Origin: a virus
Virus record (IMG/VR): IMGVR_UViG_3300025141_000867
Location: 1-22,066 of that record
Length of the DNA: 22,066 nucleotides
Strand: one strand, 5' to 3'
Below, one piece after another: positions 2,060-22,066 of this stretch. The notes below the pieces were generated by a model. The model made no database searches and was not told where the DNA came from. It saw only the letters and a list, made by a program, of their open reading frames with translations. Every line of letters begins with the position of its first letter. Within the stretch, counting starts at the first letter, position 1. Position numbers and translations under genes: made by a program.

Positions 2060-4549
2060 ATGCCGTTAGGAAAATGGTTAATAAATAGATTAATTTCTGA
2101 AGACAAGGATATTAAAACAATAGTGGCTATTTACCCGGGTCGATTCCAACCCATGGGCAAACATCATGCTGAGACTTTTAAGGGGTTACGCAAAAAATTT
2201 GATGATGCTTATATTGCAACAAGCGGTAAAGTTGATTTACCAAAATCACCATTTAACTTTAATGAGAAAAAGAAGATTATAAATTCTTATGGCATATCAA
2301 ATATTGTCCAAGTTAAAAACCCATACAAAGCAGAAGAGATTCTTAAAAAATATGATCCTGAAACTACTGCAGCAGTATTTATGGTTGGACAAAAAGATGC
2401 AAGTCGCCTTGGTGGTAAATTCTTTAGACCTTGGAAAGGAAAGGCCGAGGTTGGATATGAAGATGGTGCTTATACATTAATAGCTCCTCATAAATCTCTT
2501 AGTGTTCCCGGGTATGGTGAAATGAGTGGAACAACAATCAGAACTGCATTGGGTGATAAGTCTTTGGATCCTAAAGAAAAGAAAAAATTATTTAAGGATA
2601 TTTTTGGTCACACAAAGAATTATGATTTGATTGTTAAAAAATTAGGAAGTCTTCAAGAATCTCTGATAGAAAAATTTGTAATCAAATCGGATTTTAAAAA
2701 GATATTGAGTGAAGCAACTAGTACTGTTGGTTTGGGAGGAGGAATGGTTGATGATGGTCCAGTAACTGTATTTTCATCTTTTAAAGGGTATTCATCGAAG
2801 GGAGATTTTTATGCTAAGCAGATTGGATGGACAGTAGTAGATTATATATTATCTGGAGCAAAAGAAGTAAAGATAACACCAGATCGTAAGATCGATCCCG
2901 TAACATATTTCCCCGCTGGAGTTGCTGGAAAAAAAACACCCATCAATCCAATAGATTTAAAATCAACTCCAGCATATAAAGCCTACGTAAAGAGAATATC
3001 TAATATAGCTTTACGGCTTGGATATAAGTTTTTAGATTTTATGGGAGCAGAAGACTCCAAAGAGAAAAAGACTTTTGACAAAGAAAAAATAAAAGAGCCA
3101 GATAAATCAATTAAGACACCGACAAACTTATCAGAAAGATTGTTGGATCCCGGTATTTGGAAATCTATAATGGAGACTATTACTCTTCCGGTTGAAATTG
3201 GTGATACAGTTTATATGGGCAAATTTAAAAATAAAAAAGTTGTTGTTAAAACTATAAGTTGGAACGAAAAGGGAGATTTGTTGATCAATGGTAAGTCTGC
3301 CATGAGAATGAGGATACCGCCCAAACCAAACATTTTTGATGGAGTTGTTATAACGGAGGGTGGAGCTTATGGTCATATGGCTCATCCGTTTGATGATAGA
3401 GGATTGACCTTTGGTGATTTTAAAAATATTATTGAGCTATCACTACAAGGTCAATTGGATCTAGAAAGTAGTGCAACAGAAAAAACTGATGGACAAAATC
3501 TATTTATTACCTGGTCGGATGGAAAACTAAAAGCAGCTAGAAGTACTGGAGATGTCAAACGTGGTGGCATGGACGTTAAGGCCGTAGCTTCAAAATTTAA
3601 GGGCAGAGGAAATATTGAAAAAGCATTTAACTTTGCAATGAATGATTTATCCAAGGCAATAGGTGGTTTAAGTGATAAACAAAAAGCTAAAATATTTGAT
3701 GGTGGAAACAATTGGGTTAATATGGAGATCATGTACCCTGCATCTCCGAATGTAATTGTATATGATGCACCACATCTTCAGTTTCACAATGTTTTAAAAT
3801 ATAAAGATGGCAAGGCAATTGGAGCTGTATCAGATGGAGCTCGAATTTTGGCCGGGATGATACAGCAGATAAATGCAAATGTTCAAAAAAGTTTTAGCGT
3901 AATAGGTCCACAGATTCTCAAGGTAAAACCCCATCAAGATTTTGGAGCCAAGAGATCATATTTCAATTCTAAATTAGATAAGTTAAAATCTAAATTTGGA
4001 TTATCTGATGCTGCTACATTTTCAGAATATCATCAGACGTGGTGGGAAGATTATGTAGATAAAAATTTTCCAGGAATAGAAAATGCCATAAAAATGGGAT
4101 TGGTTAAGCGATGGGCTTTTAATGATAAGAGTTATAGACTAAATCTAAAAACCATACCAGATAAAGAACTTCTTAATAAAATTAAATCATTAGATAAGGT
4201 TAAGGTTGAACAACAGGTTAAAAAGAATATGTTACCATTTGAAAATTTATTTTTTGAATTGGGTGCTGAAGTCCTCAAGAATGCAGAAGGATTTTTAGCT
4301 GCTAATCCTGACAAATCTGTACAAGCTATAAGAAAGCAAGTTGCTAAAGCAATAAGAGATGTTAGGAAGGGTGGAGACCTTAAAAAATTAAATAAAGTTA
4401 AGGAACAGTTGGCCAAGATACAAGCTATAGGTGGATTTGATAAGATAGTGCCATCAGAAGGACTTGTTTTTATTTATAAGGGAAATACTTATAAGCTCAC
4501 AGGAGCATTTGCGAGCATCAATCAAATTACGGGATTAATGACTTTTTAA
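2060..4549 (+). CDS. Multidomain nucleotidyltransferase: HxGH-type adenylyl/cytidylyltransferase domain plus ligase-like KxDG domain
   Basis: This 829-residue protein has at least three parts. Residues about 18-190 carry GRFQPMGKHH (27-36), a variant of the nucleotide-binding motif of the NMNAT/phosphopantetheine/cytidylyltransferase superfamily, and SGTTIR (156-161), matching that family's second motif. Residues 215-430 form a middle region; at about 375-420 a short block (IGDTVYMGKFKNKK...INGK) resembles a small beta barrel. Residues about 440-829 resemble the covalent nucleotidyltransferase (ATP-dependent ligase) fold: motif I KTDG with candidate nucleotidylated Lys475, a likely motif III glutamate in NMEIMYP (E556), motif IV EGLVF (800-804), and a motif V-like YKLTG (K812). 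Substrate is unknown. RNA ligation, end repair or nucleotide/NAD salvage are possible. Multidomain proteins with similar N-terminal and middle parts occur in marine T4-like phages and are usually annotated only as nucleotidyltransferases. Confidence 0.72.
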   Translation: MPLGKWLINRLISEDKDIKTIVAIYPGRFQPMGKHHAETFKGLRKKFDDAYIATSGKVDLPKSPFNFNEKKKIINSYGISNIVQVKNPYKAEEILKKYDPETTAAVFMVGQKDASRLGGKFFRPWKGKAEVGYEDGAYTLIAPHKSLSVPGYGEMSGTTIRTALGDKSLDPKEKKKLFKDIFGHTKNYDLIVKKLGSLQESLIEKFVIKSDFKKILSEATSTVGLGGGMVDDGPVTVFSSFKGYSSKGDFYAKQIGWTVVDYILSGAKEVKITPDRKIDPVTYFPAGVAGKKTPINPIDLKSTPAYKAYVKRISNIALRLGYKFLDFMGAEDSKEKKTFDKEKIKEPDKSIKTPTNLSERLLDPGIWKSIMETITLPVEIGDTVYMGKFKNKKVVVKTISWNEKGDLLINGKSAMRMRIPPKPNIFDGVVITEGGAYGHMAHPFDDRGLTFGDFKNIIELSLQGQLDLESSATEKTDGQNLFITWSDGKLKAARSTGDVKRGGMDVKAVASKFKGRGNIEKAFNFAMNDLSKAIGGLSDKQKAKIFDGGNNWVNMEIMYPASPNVIVYDAPHLQFHNVLKYKDGKAIGAVSDGARILAGMIQQINANVQKSFSVIGPQILKVKPHQDFGAKRSYFNSKLDKLKSKFGLSDAATFSEYHQTWWEDYVDKNFPGIENAIKMGLVKRWAFNDKSYRLNLKTIPDKELLNKIKSLDKVKVEQQVKKNMLPFENLFFELGAEVLKNAEGFLAANPDKSVQAIRKQVAKAIRDVRKGGDLKKLNKVKEQLAKIQAIGGFDKIVPSEGLVFIYKGNTYKLTGAFASINQITGLMTF

Positions 4550-15699: not shown

Positions 15700-17364
15700 A
15701 TGACAAAAATTTCAAATTTATTGCAAGACGCCGGTGCCTCATATAAGAATCAAATCAATGAAACTAAAGGTTTGGTTAATAAGTGGGATAAAACAGGACT
15801 TCTCGAGGGAATGGACCAGGAATATGATAAATCTGGTATGGCCGTTCTTTTGGAGAATCAAGCTCGTCAATTAATTGATGAGGCTTCTGCAACCGGCGGA
15901 TCAAATGCCGAAGAATGGTCGGGTGTTGCTCTACCTCTTGTAAGAAGGATCTTTGCTGAAATTGCAGCTAAAGATTTTGTATCTGTTCAACCTATGAATT
16001 TACCATCAGGACTAGTTTTCTATCTTGATTTTAAATATGGTACAAGTGCAGCAGCAAATGATGCGGGAAGATTTACTGGAGACATCTTTGGTAATACTTC
16101 AGCTTCTGCTGATCCAACTGGCGGTCTTTATGGTGATGGTCGATGGCCTTTTTCCATAAAAGATGATGTTGCTGCAGTATCAGCAGTAAATGTATTTACA
16201 GCATCCTGGAAAGAAATCGGATTTAACTCCGCTTTATCTACCTCTCTTAATATGGGAGGAAATAGTGATTCTGAGACTCTTTTGAAGATATCCTTTCCAT
16301 TGGATAAATTAACTAGACCTGATAATCAGGGAGTTAAAGGCTGGACAATAACTGGATCCGGGGTAACTGCAGCTAATAATATTAGCTCATACAACTATGT
16401 TAGTAATACTATTGCTAGCGCAGGAAGTAATACTCCAATCTATGGATCTAATTTAACAAGTGCCTTATCAGCATCGATATTTGTCCTTGCAACTAGTGCA
16501 ATGCCAAAATTGGGTGCAACTATGCACGTTAACTATGGCCGACAGCCCACAGAATCTACAAGAGGTGATTTTGAAGATACAGCTGGTGATGGAACAACTA
16601 TCAATATTCCAGAAGTTAACGTTGGAATGCATTCAGAGCCAATTGTTGCTAAGACACGAAAGTTGAAAGCAGTCTGGTCTCCAGAATTTGCTCAAGATTT
16701 AAATGCTTATCATTCAATTGATGCTGAAGCTGAATTGACTTCAATGCTTTCTGAATATATCTCGATGGAGATTGATTTAGAGATCATAGATATGCTTTTA
16801 CAGAATGCTGTAACAACTGAGTATTGGTCTGTTACACCTGGTCAGTCAATAAATAACGCAGGAACAGCTTTTGACGATGGAACATCAGCAGAAGCTTATA
16901 ATCAGGGAACCTGGTTCCAAACTATTGGAACTAAAGTTCAGAAAGTTTCTAATAAAATCCATGCAAGAACTCTTCGAGGAGGTGCTAATTTCTTAGTTAC
17001 TTCTCCAGACGTTGCAACGATTATAGAATCTATTCCTGGATATGCTGCTGATACTGATGGAGGCTCAATGGGAGCACAGGGTTTTGCAATGGGTGTACAA
17101 AAAGTGGGTCAGCTTAATAGCAGATTTACAGTGTACAAAAATCCATACATGCAAAGGAATGTTATTCTCATGGGATTCCGTGGAACTCAATTCTTGGAAA
17201 CTGGAGCGGTCTACGCACCATATATTCCATTAATCATGACTCCACTGGTATATGATCCTACCAACTTTACACCAAGAAAAGGTGTGATGACACGGTATGC
17301 TAAAAAGATCGTACGTCCAGAATTCTATGGTAAGATTTATATTAAAGGATTGAACAGAGTTTAA
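15700..17364 (+). CDS. 23: Major capsid protein, gp23-like
   Basis: This 554-residue protein forms the hexamers of the capsid shell. The N-terminal 60 or so residues are helical and charged, like the cleaved propeptide of T4 gp23. IDE at residues 59-61 fits the gp21 cleavage rule, near the T4 site after Glu65. The mature part starts with WSGVALPLVRRIFAEIAAKDFVSVQPMNLPSGLVFYLDFKYG (about 73-114), a hallmark of gp23, and ends with a conserved-looking RYAKKIVRPEFYGKIYIKGL. Length is close to T4 gp23 (521). AAGGAG lies eight bases ahead of the ATG and the gene shares a leader with the scaffold gene. A strong terminator follows. Confidence 0.94.
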   Translation: MTKISNLLQDAGASYKNQINETKGLVNKWDKTGLLEGMDQEYDKSGMAVLLENQARQLIDEASATGGSNAEEWSGVALPLVRRIFAEIAAKDFVSVQPMNLPSGLVFYLDFKYGTSAAANDAGRFTGDIFGNTSASADPTGGLYGDGRWPFSIKDDVAAVSAVNVFTASWKEIGFNSALSTSLNMGGNSDSETLLKISFPLDKLTRPDNQGVKGWTITGSGVTAANNISSYNYVSNTIASAGSNTPIYGSNLTSALSASIFVLATSAMPKLGATMHVNYGRQPTESTRGDFEDTAGDGTTINIPEVNVGMHSEPIVAKTRKLKAVWSPEFAQDLNAYHSIDAEAELTSMLSEYISMEIDLEIIDMLLQNAVTTEYWSVTPGQSINNAGTAFDDGTSAEAYNQGTWFQTIGTKVQKVSNKIHARTLRGGANFLVTSPDVATIIESIPGYAADTDGGSMGAQGFAMGVQKVGQLNSRFTVYKNPYMQRNVILMGFRGTQFLETGAVYAPYIPLIMTPLVYDPTNFTPRKGVMTRYAKKIVRPEFYGKIYIKGLNRV

Positions 17365-17920: not shown

Positions 17921-20900
17921 ATGGCAAATAATATTGTGACCACCAATGCAACCACAAATGTAATAACAGTATCTACTCCAGGACCAGGAGGACCGATAGG
18001 ACCACCGGGCGCGACCGGAACAATTGCTTCTAATACTGGAATGAGCGTAACTGGAAGTGCAGTAATTTCGGGTTCTCTATTTAATGAAGGAAACTTTAAT
18101 CAATATGGGGATGCTATCATAACTGGATCCCTAATACTTAAATCTACTACAGTTGGAGCTGGAACAGTAGGAAATGATTTTCAAGTTGGTGGGAGGAAAG
18201 AATTTGTATCTCTCCATGGTGATACAAAAATAACTGGTTCACTATATGTAACTGGATCATCAATTGAAGTAGTATTTGGAAATTCATTACGATGGTCAAA
18301 CCCAACAGGTTCCTTAACTCTTACTGGAAGTATGAATATTTCTGGAAGTCTTAATATTAATGGTACTCCTATTACCCCTCTTGATACGGGTTCTCTGGGA
18401 AATACTATAATAACAGGATCTTTAATAGTAACTGGATCAATCACTGGAAGCCCTGGAGTAATAAATCAATTAACTGCTTCATATGCTATATCTGCTTCGT
18501 ACGCCATATCATCGTCTGTTGAAATTACCAAAGAAATATCATCCTCACATGCTAATACAGCTGATACTGCAGCTGGATTAACAGGACAACCCTCAATCTA
18601 CGTTACAAATATAACATCCTCTGGAGATATAAGTGCAAGCGGAACTATAACGGCAAATACTTTTGTAGCTGATGCTGTTGGAATTGGAACAACAAGTCCT
18701 AGTACGGCATTACATATCGTTTCATCATCTACTAGAGACAGTAATCTATGGCTTGATAAAGGTAGTCGTGGATATGGAGTCTCAAACATATATTTTAGAT
18801 ATCAAGATCCAGGCGGATCTATTATTCAAAGTGATAGAGATTTATTATTTAAAACAGGAAATAGTTTAGCTTCTAGAATGTTTATAACTGGGTCCAATGG
18901 TTATATAGGAATTGGAACAGTAACTCCAGAAGCGGCATTACATATTGCTGGAAATATCTGGACAAGTGGATCTGCTGGTCATATAACAGCCTCTGGAAAT
19001 ATAAGTGCAAGTGGTACTTACTATGGAGATGGAAGTAATCTAACAGGTATATCAGCAGGTTTCTGGACAGGAAGCAGTGGAACAATAACAAGAGAAGGTG
19101 GTGTTCAAATAACAGGTTCACTAATTATCTCGGGGTCATTTATAACTTCAAGAAATTCAGACTTATCTAATACAATAATAGGTTCTTCTTCCGCGGCCTC
19201 TATGGGTAGTGGTGCAACTGGAAATGTAATTATTGGCAATGAAACAGCAAAATCCCTTACTTCTGGAGATGATAACGTTATAATAGGGGAAAATGCTGGC
19301 CAAAGTATAACAACAGGGTATGATAGTGTATATATAGGGCATAGTTCAGGTTTACAAGCCCACTCAACTAATGCTATTGGTAATGTTGTAATAGGAACTG
19401 ATGCAGGTTTAGGTTCGGGGGGTGCATCATCTTCTAGAAATGTTTTTATAGGTCAAAATGCAGGAAGAGAAGTAGATGGAACAAATAATGTATATATAGG
19501 TAGAGAAGCAGGTAGAGGAGAGGCTGGGGCAGATGGAACCGGTAATATAGGATATGGGGCATTTGCTTTAACTGATAATAGGGATGGAAATTATAATATT
19601 GGAATTGGATATTATGCTGGTGGATTAATAAAAGATGGAAGTAATAATATCTTTATAGGATCAGGTAGTTTAGGTCAAGCAACAGGCATGAGTGATCAAC
19701 TTCGAATAGGTCACGCAGATTTAATAACAATCTCTGCTTCATTAGCAACAGGTGATATCATCTTCCCAAGCACAGCTTCAGCAGCTTATTTAGTAGCAAC
19801 TAATACTTCAACAGCTGAAAAATTTCAAATTATAAATGCCCAAGAGAATTTAATAATAGGTAATGCATCAACCCTTGCAATAAATTCTGAAGAAGGTTCT
19901 ACTAAGGTTGGTTATTATGCAGGATCTCAGGGAGATGGAGGTGGAGATTATAGTACTCTTATAGGAAGAAGCGCAGGTCAATATAATACAACAGCATATA
20001 ATACTGCTATAGGAACAAATGCTTTATTATCGGGAGATGGTGGAATAGCTAAAACGGCTATTGGAGCAGAGGCATTATATAATTCCGCAGGCAATTACAA
20101 TATAGGATTAGGTTATAAAGCAGGAAAATATCTTACCTCTGGTGTAAGTAATATAATAATAGGACACGATGCAGCTTCAGGTTCAGCAGTAGCAATGTCT
20201 AGTCAATTATTTATTGGATCTGGATCTCTTGCAATTATATCTGGAAGTTTAGTAACTGGGGATATAATCTTTCCAAGCACAGCTTCAGCAGCTTACTTCT
20301 CAGGAGATGGTTCAAATCTAACAGGCATAGCAGCTGGTTTCTGGACAGGAAGCAGTGGAACAATAACAAGAGAAGGTGATGTTCAAATCTCGGGATCTCT
20401 TATCATATCAGGATCAAAACTAACAACAACCTCTACAATGCTATCAGTAGAAGGAAGTGGATCTGTTAGTGGTTCAGCTATCTTTGAAGTAAAAGGAGCA
20501 GCAGGAACTTTATTTGCTGTAAATGATGGTTTATCTGGAGAACTATTTGCAGCTAATAATATTTCAGGATTACCAGTTATATCAGCTAATGCAGACAATA
20601 CTGTTAGATTAGGAAAATACCAAGGATTTGGAATTGTAATATCAGGTTCAACTCCTGGACCAACAGATGAAGCAGCAAAAATATCAATAACAGGTTCTAT
20701 ATATCATACAGGTTCAGTAGCAGAATTTACAAGTAATGTTGAAATAAAGGGAGAGGTATTAGCCCATCCTTCTACATTATCTAATAATAATATTATAGTA
20801 GGTAGTGGTGCTGGAGGTAGTTTGACTGGGGGAACTTATAACGTAATAGCAGGATATGAAGCAGGAAAGTATGGTTCTTTACCCCAAAATAATGTTGCAT

Positions 20901-22066
20901 TAGGTAGGTATGCGGGGTATGCTTTAGGTACAGGATATAATAATGTATTTGTAGGATATAAAGCAGGATATGCAAATGGTACTACTGGTATTAGTTATAC
21001 CCCTTTATATAATACAGCTGTAGGTGCATTTGCATTAAATGATTTATTAAGTGGAGATAATAATACTGCATTTGGGTATAGGGCAGGTCAAAATATCACG
21101 GGTGGAGATAATTTAGTACTTGGATTTTATGCAGGTGATAGTATAGTAGCTGGAAATGCTAATATTGTAATAGGTTCTGGTAGTCTTGGCGAAGCAGCAA
21201 TGTCTAATCAACTACGAATAGGTGGTAAATATGCAACAGATGGTAGTGACATTACAACAATCTCTGCTTCATTAGTAACAGGCGACATCATTTTCCCAAG
21301 CACAGCTTCAGCAGCTTACTTCTCAGGAGATGGTTCACAATTAACAAACCTTCCTGCAAGTAGTACTTTTCCATATACAGGAGATGCTCAAATAACAGGT
21401 TCGCTTATAGTATCAAGCTCCGGTATATCATCTATAGGATCTATAACTGGTTCTGAAATTTTTATAAATAATGGTACTAATATTTCTCCCGGAAGTACTG
21501 CTCCAGGCCAATTAAGAATAGCAGGTTCAGGGTATAATGGTTATATTGCTATGAATGCTACTGCAATGTATATTGGAAATAATAGTAGCGGCCGAGATTT
21601 AGTTTTACAAACTGATGAGACTGATAGATTTACTATAGCAGGAGCTAACAATCAATTTACTTTTTCAGCAACTGGTGGGGATGGTGTCAATATCTCTAAT
21701 GGAGCTACAAGAATAGATGGGAATACTCAAATAACGGGTTCATTAAGAATATCCGGAAGTTCATTACCATTAAGAGCTATGGGCAGTGGCTCAACAGTAT
21801 TCGATGTAATAGGAAGTGAAGGAACTTTATTCTCAGTTGATGATGATTTAACAGGAATGTTATTTACTACAAATGATATTTCAGGATTACCAGTATTACA
21901 AGCTTCAGCTTCTGGAGAAACATTCATAGGAAAATCTCCTCAATCACTTTACACTACTGCAGTAATTAGTGCTACATCTGCTTCATCAACGGCATCTCTT
22001 TGTACTTTAAGTACTAGTTCTTATGATGGAGCATTTTTTGATTATACAATGACTTCTGGCTCTAAC
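17921..22066 (+). CDS. Giant tail fibre/adhesin with YadA-head-like modules (5' part, runs off window)
   Basis: The ATG at 17921 opens a frame with no stop for 1382 codons, up to the last base. The N-terminus has a short collagen-like stretch (GPGGPIGPPGATG, about residues 24-36), as in trimeric phage fibres. Residues about 40-400 are rich in TGS, SGS and YAISASYAIS motifs. Three modules at about 410-605, 640-780 and 945-1113 consist of repeats of the type NNVxIGxxAG, resembling the beta-roll head repeats of trimeric autotransporter adhesins (YadA/Hia). Modules 1 and 3 end with close variants of IGSGSLGxA..MSxQLRIG; module 2 ends with a rearranged form. All three are followed by TGDIIFPSTASAAY. 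Two copies of a GTLFxVxDxLxGxLF...DISGLPV domain lie near 863 and 1303. It most likely forms a long trimeric host-binding fibre. The receptor-binding end lies beyond the window. Confidence 0.8.
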   Translation, partial: MANNIVTTNATTNVITVSTPGPGGPIGPPGATGTIASNTGMSVTGSAVISGSLFNEGNFNQYGDAIITGSLILKSTTVGAGTVGNDFQVGGRKEFVSLHGDTKITGSLYVTGSSIEVVFGNSLRWSNPTGSLTLTGSMNISGSLNINGTPITPLDTGSLGNTIITGSLIVTGSITGSPGVINQLTASYAISASYAISSSVEITKEISSSHANTADTAAGLTGQPSIYVTNITSSGDISASGTITANTFVADAVGIGTTSPSTALHIVSSSTRDSNLWLDKGSRGYGVSNIYFRYQDPGGSIIQSDRDLLFKTGNSLASRMFITGSNGYIGIGTVTPEAALHIAGNIWTSGSAGHITASGNISASGTYYGDGSNLTGISAGFWTGSSGTITREGGVQITGSLIISGSFITSRNSDLSNTIIGSSSAASMGSGATGNVIIGNETAKSLTSGDDNVIIGENAGQSITTGYDSVYIGHSSGLQAHSTNAIGNVVIGTDAGLGSGGASSSRNVFIGQNAGREVDGTNNVYIGREAGRGEAGADGTGNIGYGAFALTDNRDGNYNIGIGYYAGGLIKDGSNNIFIGSGSLGQATGMSDQLRIGHADLITISASLATGDIIFPSTASAAYLVATNTSTAEKFQIINAQENLIIGNASTLAINSEEGSTKVGYYAGSQGDGGGDYSTLIGRSAGQYNTTAYNTAIGTNALLSGDGGIAKTAIGAEALYNSAGNYNIGLGYKAGKYLTSGVSNIIIGHDAASGSAVAMSSQLFIGSGSLAIISGSLVTGDIIFPSTASAAYFSGDGSNLTGIAAGFWTGSSGTITREGDVQISGSLIISGSKLTTTSTMLSVEGSGSVSGSAIFEVKGAAGTLFAVNDGLSGELFAANNISGLPVISANADNTVRLGKYQGFGIVISGSTPGPTDEAAKISITGSIYHTGSVAEFTSNVEIKGEVLAHPSTLSNNNIIVGSGAGGSLTGGTYNVIAGYEAGKYGSLPQNNVALGRYAGYALGTGYNNVFVGYKAGYANGTTGISYTPLYNTAVGAFALNDLLSGDNNTAFGYRAGQNITGGDNLVLGFYAGDSIVAGNANIVIGSGSLGEAAMSNQLRIGGKYATDGSDITTISASLVTGDIIFPSTASAAYFSGDGSQLTNLPASSTFPYTGDAQITGSLIVSSSGISSIGSITGSEIFINNGTNISPGSTAPGQLRIAGSGYNGYIAMNATAMYIGNNSSGRDLVLQTDETDRFTIAGANNQFTFSATGGDGVNISNGATRIDGNTQITGSLRISGSSLPLRAMGSGSTVFDVIGSEGTLFSVDDDLTGMLFTTNDISGLPVLQASASGETFIGKSPQSLYTTAVISATSASSTASLCTLSTSSYDGAFFDYTMTSGSN
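18975..19000 (+). repeat. 26-base repeat shared with the 259-2016 fibre-like gene (copy 2)
   Basis: These 26 bases are identical to 1835-1860, in the same reading frame, encoding GHITASGN and flanking residues. The two copies are about 17 kb apart in direct orientation. Confidence 0.85.
19058..19100 (+). repeat. 43-base direct repeat inside the giant fibre gene (copy 1)
   Basis: This block is identical to 20336-20378 and encodes GFWTGSSGTITREG. It precedes the VQISGSLIISGS-type strand motif in both places and marks a repeated fibre unit. Confidence 0.9.
20273..20314 (+). repeat. 42-base direct repeat inside the giant fibre gene (copy 1)
   Basis: This block is identical to 21296-21337 and encodes PSTASAAYFSGDGS. 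A shorter related copy (23 identical bases) begins at 19766, so the unit occurs after each of the three YadA-like modules. Confidence 0.9.
20336..20378 (+). repeat. 43-base direct repeat inside the giant fibre gene (copy 2)
   Basis: This block is identical to 19058-19100, in the same frame, about 1.28 kb downstream of the first copy. Confidence 0.9.
21296..21337 (+). repeat. 42-base direct repeat inside the giant fibre gene (copy 2)
   Basis: This block is identical to 20273-20314, in the same frame, and follows the third YadA-like module. Confidence 0.9.

Follow-up and report, generated by a model that had tools for sequence, protein, structure and literature searches.

An RNA-ligase-like domain and a HIGH-superfamily domain in one chain, likely a head-packaged polyprotein, of a marine T4-like myovirus

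Results

The window analyzed here, i.e., the whole stretch of 22,066 nucleotides given by positions 1 to 22,066 of IMG/VR virus record IMGVR_UViG_3300025141_000867, is the head region of a marine T4-like myovirus. The gene at 2060..4549 (plus strand), an intact open reading frame (ORF) with an ATG start preceded by AAAAGGAAT, which resembles a ribosome-binding site, encodes a chain of 829 amino acids (aa) that appears to be a modular polyprotein; further downstream lie the genes for large terminase, portal, prohead protease and major head protein. A preliminary description of this ORF had proposed that two nucleotidyltransferase folds are joined in one protein, i.e., an N-terminal domain of the HxGH superfamily and a C-terminal domain with the ordered motifs of covalent nucleotidyltransferases. 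All motifs quoted there were found at the residues given (GRFQPMGKHH at 27-36; SGTTIR at 156-161; KTDG at 475-478; E556 within NMEIMYP; EGLVF at 800-804; K812 within YKLTG), and AlphaFold2 models and Foldseek searches of each half confirmed the presence of both folds in the chain.

The C-terminal covalent-nucleotidyltransferase (RNA-ligase-like) domain (residues 434-829; 3359..4546, plus strand) was modelled by AlphaFold2 with 53 sequences from the window and IMG/VR, which gave a predicted local distance difference test (pLDDT) value of 89.3 and a predicted template modelling score (pTM) of 0.84. In this model, the strands coincide with motifs I, Ia, III, IIIa, IV and V, a helical insertion of approx. 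190 residues lies between IIIa and IV, and motif V is not followed by an OB-fold (oligonucleotide-binding) domain. When this half was searched separately against the PDB with Foldseek, a ligase-like fold was obtained with RNA ligases at the top; the top 14 matches comprised T4 Rnl1 first and then archaeal Rnl3, an Aquifex ligase and Rnl2, and DNA ligases and a capping enzyme ranked lower. The best match, T4 Rnl1 (2c5u), showed an E-value of 3.2e-3, a probability of 0.92, a template modelling (TM) score of 0.23 and 12% identity. In the Foldseek viral library (BFVD), close members of the family were followed by a "cytidyltransferase-like" protein of S-PM2 and many annotated RNA ligases. None of the Pfam, PHROG and NCBIfam models recognized the ligase-like domain in the window protein, and profile searches against RNA ligase families gave it no ligase match; only one relative (L087) showed a sub-threshold match (E = 0.022) to Pfam RNA_ligase (PF09414). 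A Pfam match to YopX was below cut-off and was rejected, and PDB sequence profile hits to ribosomal protein eS6 and TetR were rejected as chance.

Among 63 dereplicated ligase-like domains, reaching down to gut jumbo-phage members at 22-25% identity, K475, D477, G478, R494, E556, E800, G801, K812, T814 and G815 were invariant (63/63). The domain carries KxDG as motif I, with motifs Ia, III, IV and V in order on a nucleotidyltransferase fold, and the ordered motifs first described around K475, E556, E800, G801 and K812 are upheld, their invariance marking them as more than chance matches. HHalign comparisons between families used narrow profiles, with column-shuffled controls for T4 Rnl1 and for the family DUF6267 (see below), and were read for register alone because the probabilities were low. 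Read in this manner, the T4 Rnl1 alignment (probability 0.7%) showed the correct motif register, and K475 (codon at 3482..3484, plus strand) was aligned with the nucleotidylated lysine of T4 Rnl1 (KEDGS) and with that of Rnl2 (K-x-x-G). NMEIMYP was aligned with NFEFVAP, and NMEIMYPASPNVIVY of the window domain with NFEFVAPTNRIVLAY of T4 Rnl1. A lysyl-nucleotide intermediate is predicted at K475, the putative nucleotide-accepting lysine of motif I.

The N-terminal HIGH-superfamily adenylyltransferase domain (residues approx. 19-205; 2114..2674, plus strand), which includes GRFQPMGKHH and SGTTIR, was modelled with a pLDDT of about 88 (AlphaFold2; good model quality over residues 20-210) and showed the Rossmann HIGH fold, matching PPAT, NaMNAT and NadM with a Foldseek probability of 1.0. 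As these three enzymes score alike, the substrate, including any specificity for nicotinamide mononucleotide (NMN), can not be deduced from the fold. The earlier assignment to the HxGH superfamily thus held for the fold and for the ISSTxxR-type motif (SGTTIR, with the arginine of SGTxxR kept in relatives), but not for the canonical (H/T)xGH signature; the window protein has GKHH and 56 of the 62 readable fused relatives have GxHH. The final His of this signature is kept, and canonical HxGH or TxGH occurs in several relatives. The match to Pfam CTP_transf_like stayed below cut-off. Since most fused relatives have GxHH as their catalytic signature, activity of the HIGH enzyme is, to judge from these residues, plausible yet not assured.

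The ligase-like/HIGH pair was fused or adjacent in 135 of the 136 judgeable loci of the window family and DUF6267. Among the 93 ORFs of the window family, 69 were fused, 3 were adjacent, 1 had no partner nearby and 20 were cut by contig ends; this count is biased, as the query for this family held both halves. DUF6267 loci, on the other hand, were scanned with a query without the HIGH domain, and their count is unbiased (1 fused, 62 adjacent, 0 absent and 20 undetermined, i.e., 63/63 judgeable loci paired). The two domains are encoded by neighbouring separate genes in L081 and occur in reversed order in L087; in other relatives they are fused in the same order, and several kinds of modules are inserted between them. 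Overall, these data strongly support the view that the ligase-like domains form a new, RNA-ligase-like family whose HIGH partner is constant. Among phages with isolated hosts, only Microcystis phage Mel-JY01 carries the window family, and its gene is also located among head genes; a search of the gut jumbo-phage relatives found few further loci.

DUF6267 (PF19782; T4-GC 71; the N-terminal part of phrog_455) occurs in cyanophages and Pelagibacter phages and has no assigned function; no mention of it was found in the literature searched. Like the window domain, it shows ordered ligase-like motifs (KWDG, GTKS, QGDLL, PEGYVA and VKLVDR) and an N-terminal H-x-x-H signature (HLEHLEDD or HLEHPED as compared to HMAHPFDD in the window protein), and its HIGH partner is fused (S-PM2) or adjacent, often together with a kinase. 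Moreover, the ligase-like domain of the window links to the S-PM2 protein with a probability of 1.0 in the viral library. DUF6267 differs in having an Asp in motif III, where the window family has a Glu, and in usually consisting of separate genes in the replication region. A Pfam scan found no PF19782 match to the window protein, and the HHalign probability between the window domain and DUF6267 was only 3.7%. As motif order and the H-x-x-H signature are shared, we infer that DUF6267 is a divergent relative, and the nearest known one, of the ligase-like domain.

Between the two folds, a middle domain (DDGP...; residues approx. 219-345; 2714..3094, plus strand) was found in 55 ligase-domain ORFs; it had no match, and its AlphaFold2 model was poor, with low pLDDT. 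It is followed by a small mobile module (LPVEIGDTVYMGKFKNKKVVVK...; residues approx. 371-420; 3170..3319, plus strand), preceded by an IME|T site at 372; 44 ligase-domain ORFs contain this module, as do 37 ORFs of other kinds. In L006, L007 and L021, where it stands alone, the module begins at the residue matching 374, just past the predicted cut at 372. The module is usually single-copy, and its interpretation as a repeat was rejected.

Relatives differ in exchangeable CCA-adding, kinase, HExxH and small modules, as expected for a protein of the polyvalent type. A tRNA CCA-adding enzyme is present in L033 and L086 (PDB 1miv, E = 1.3e-30; PHROG tRNA nucleotidyltransferase, E = 1.6e-57), and 8 of the 93 window-family ORFs include a P-loop kinase module (Zeta_toxin/AAA_33). 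Of the 62 DUF6267 loci that have a HIGH gene close by, 45 also have such a kinase in the vicinity. Taken together, a kinase, a ligase and CCA addition are what tRNA repair of the T4 Pnkp/Rnl1 kind would call for. Phage RNA repair has been reviewed (PMC7824862). As kinase and tRNA CCA-adding modules occur in relatives, a role of the ligase half in RNA repair is favoured, in line with one part of the preliminary description, and repair of RNA, probably tRNA, early in infection is our best reading of that role.

Individual loci showed further arrangements. L033 and L086 (1590 and 1907 aa) each combine three nucleotidyltransferase folds in one chain, i.e., CCA-adding (Pol-beta type), HIGH and ligase-like. 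In Pelagibacter-phage-like contigs among the DUF6267 loci (L100-L179), DUF6267, a P-loop kinase bearing the small module and a HIGH-domain gene lie close to one another. L074 and L077 (1133 aa) carry a module with a zinc-peptidase-like HEIDH motif between the HIGH and ligase-like domains, and in L057 (residues approx. 600-750) a module opening with IYHYTDKKGLAGILKSNSIK resembles, by eye, ADP-ribosyltransferases of the DarT/ART type, with no Pfam match.

The T4 prohead protease gp21 cuts after L/I-X-E, and short N-terminal propeptides direct cargo into the prohead (PMC9026906). The window protein begins with such an element: residues 1-14 (MPLGKWLINRLISE; 2060..2101, plus strand) end in an [LI]xE site (LISE, 11-14) and represent a probable capsid-targeting propeptide. 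An [LI]xE is present in this part of the chain (residues 9-24) in 26 of the 29 full-length relatives, as compared to about 10% of random 16-mers. The [LI]xE sites of the window protein end at 14, 200, 204, 218, 359, 372 and 433, and nearly all are junctional. A scan for this motif placed LQE|S, LIE|K and ILSE|A in the junction at residues approx. 200-218 (2657..2713, plus strand) and an ITE| site at residues 431-433 (3350..3358, plus strand), directly before the ligase-like domain; 22 of 29 relatives have [LI]xE at exactly this pre-ligase position (random tripeptides, 0.9%). To the 29 dereplicated relatives we also applied the stricter motif [LI]xE[ASGTND], which had 97 occurrences in linkers (expected, 40 +/- 6), whereas the two conserved domains contained 17 (expected, 38 +/- 6). 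No other motif tested combined linker enrichment with domain depletion in a like manner. As control motifs showed that linkers also favour some helix-type patterns, the depletion in domains represents the more specific half of the signal. These site data, taken from sequence, make it likely that the polyprotein is packaged into the capsid and that the prohead protease cuts it.

The predicted processing enzyme is the head maturation (prohead) protease of the same phage (12549..13205, plus strand; phrog_207, E = 1.4e-55). The major capsid protein (15700..17364, plus strand; phrog_138, E = 5e-69) provides a reference [LI]xE site, RQLIDE|ASATGG, in the region matching the end of the T4 gp23 propeptide; this cleavage position was read by eye, as the alignment to T4 gp23 is gappy there. 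In L091 and L092 (400-kb contigs from gut metagenome-assembled genomes), many neighbouring genes begin with MKSL.QYI.E-like peptides that resemble the T4 capsid-targeting sequence, which suggests a large set of packaged cargo. The head genes of the window are flanked by long fibre-like proteins rich in ITGSL/SGS repeats (17921-22066 and 259-2016).

Discussion

Having computed two folds, invariant active-site residues, a conserved pairing and the distribution of sites, we infer cleavage, injection and an RNA substrate, and we give about an even chance to a head-packaged polyprotein that the prohead protease cuts and that reaches the host along with the DNA, serving there as a kit for the repair of RNA (probably tRNA). 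The gene would encode a precursor from which a T4-like myovirus derives several proteins packaged in its head; its N-terminal targeting peptide would bring the precursor into the prohead, where the phage's protease would cleave after [LI]xE at this peptide and at the domain junctions, freeing a HIGH-fold adenylyltransferase, the middle domain, the small accessory module and an RNA-ligase-like covalent nucleotidyltransferase. The ligase-like piece would form a lysyl-nucleotide at K475, the cleaved pieces would enter the host together with the DNA, and the ligase would reseal broken RNA, most likely tRNA cleaved by host defence nucleases, assisted by the kinase and the CCA-adding enzyme in relatives encoding them; the HIGH enzyme would act in the same pathway or supply NAD+ (nicotinamide adenine dinucleotide). 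The suggestion of a self-contained enzyme in the preliminary description did not survive: the halves are separate or order-reversed in relatives, other modules can lie between them, and sites of the prohead-protease type are found at the junctions, so that the chain more likely gives rise to several packaged proteins. In a bolder version, which is possible though less probable, an animal-virus-like polyprotein matured in the capsid by the prohead protease would deliver an RNA-repair set (kinase, ligase and end-restoring enzyme), the ligase family being new and shared with DUF6267, and the HIGH partner might recycle NMN from an NAD+-using ligase into NAD+.

Several observations weigh against a processed and packaged RNA-repair chain. 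The pre-ligase Glu is missing in 7 of the 29 relatives (LLLM|GG), these relatives are phylogenetically non-independent, and amphipathic stretches in the linkers inflate related motifs such as E.[LI]. Moreover, the LLxEGG stretch may be just part of the ligase fold, a reading that we retain because the stand-alone relatives L081 and L091 have LLxEGG as well as an N-terminus of the targeting type. The Foldseek E-values against the PDB are 3e-3 and weaker, with none passing 0.001, and the TM-scores are about 0.23; the RNA-ligase fold reading hence rests on the consistency of the list and on no single score. HHalign probabilities were low (0.7-19%), on a scale where the known pair Rnl1 and Rnl2 yields only 0.8%, and in PDB sequence profile searches no solved ligase matched the ligase-like domain. 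In addition, the HIGH enzyme may be less active owing to the GxHH change.

Some of these data would be accommodated by an ordinary, uncut multidomain enzyme made late in infection and acting inside the cell, i.e., an unpackaged RNA ligase with an NMN adenylyltransferase attached to it. Fusion alone could explain the conserved pairing, and the homologous cyanophage genes sit among replication genes and not among head genes, which also speaks against packaging. The HIGH homologue T4-GC190 was detected by mass spectrometry in purified S-SM1 virions (PMC3037559), and cytidyltransferases are often detected in cyanophage virions, which speaks for packaging, although the authors of the latter study warn of possible carry-over (PMC10665884). 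An uncut enzyme would, however, leave unexplained the short N-terminal peptide, which is conserved and has [LI]xE at its end, the junction sites, the avoidance of such sites inside the domains, the location among head genes in both the window and Mel-JY01 and the detection in S-SM1 virions, and we regard it as rather doubtful. It is unlikely that the domain is an active covalent nucleotidyltransferase of another kind, serving DNA nick sealing, RNA capping or protein AMPylation; the motifs are shared across the superfamily, the OB-fold domain is absent and the helical insertion is unique, yet RNA ligases occupy the top of the PDB list, above the DNA ligases and the capping enzyme, and CCA-adding and kinase modules accompany the domain in relatives. 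A purely structural or scaffolding head protein with two degenerate domains would fit the altered HxGH signature and the position in the head region, but is very improbable given that all catalytic ligase residues are invariant even in the most distant of the 63 sequences and that SGTxxR and the final His are kept, with canonical signatures in several relatives.

The packaged RNA-repair reading offers a testable biochemical role for a widespread unannotated domain and for DUF6267, a domain probably common to hundreds of sequenced relatives in cyanophages and pelagiphages. A further suggestion is that phages may package several counter-defence or repair enzymes as a single cleavable chain, which would allow RNA repair to start ahead of any phage gene expression.

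Among known systems, T4 Rnl1 (gp63, which acts with Pnkp in tRNA repair) is the best PDB fold match, with K475 on KEDGS, and is made in the infected cell; the window domain differs in its large insertion between motifs IIIa and IV, its fusion to other modules and its probable packaging. NMN adenylyltransferase, NadM and the cyanophage phrog_395 "cytidyltransferase" share the fold, GRFQP and SGTxxR with the HIGH domain, which differs by GxHH in place of (H/T)xGH in most members and by being embedded in a polyprotein. T4 IPI-IPIII and Alt likewise begin with a short targeting propeptide that the prohead protease removes at L/I-X-E (PMC9026906), but are single cargo proteins, whereas the window chain is predicted to yield several enzymes. 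The closest concept is that of the polyvalent proteins (Iyer et al. 2017, PMC5512222), large multidomain chains with varied enzymatic modules that are predicted to be packaged and injected; a text search of that paper found no NMNAT, and RNA ligase only as never accompanying its 2H domains. The window protein resembles them in size and modular variety and differs in that cleavage at [LI]xE by the prohead protease is proposed in place of autoproteolysis. The ligase family, its constant pairing and the proposed processing route are the new elements.
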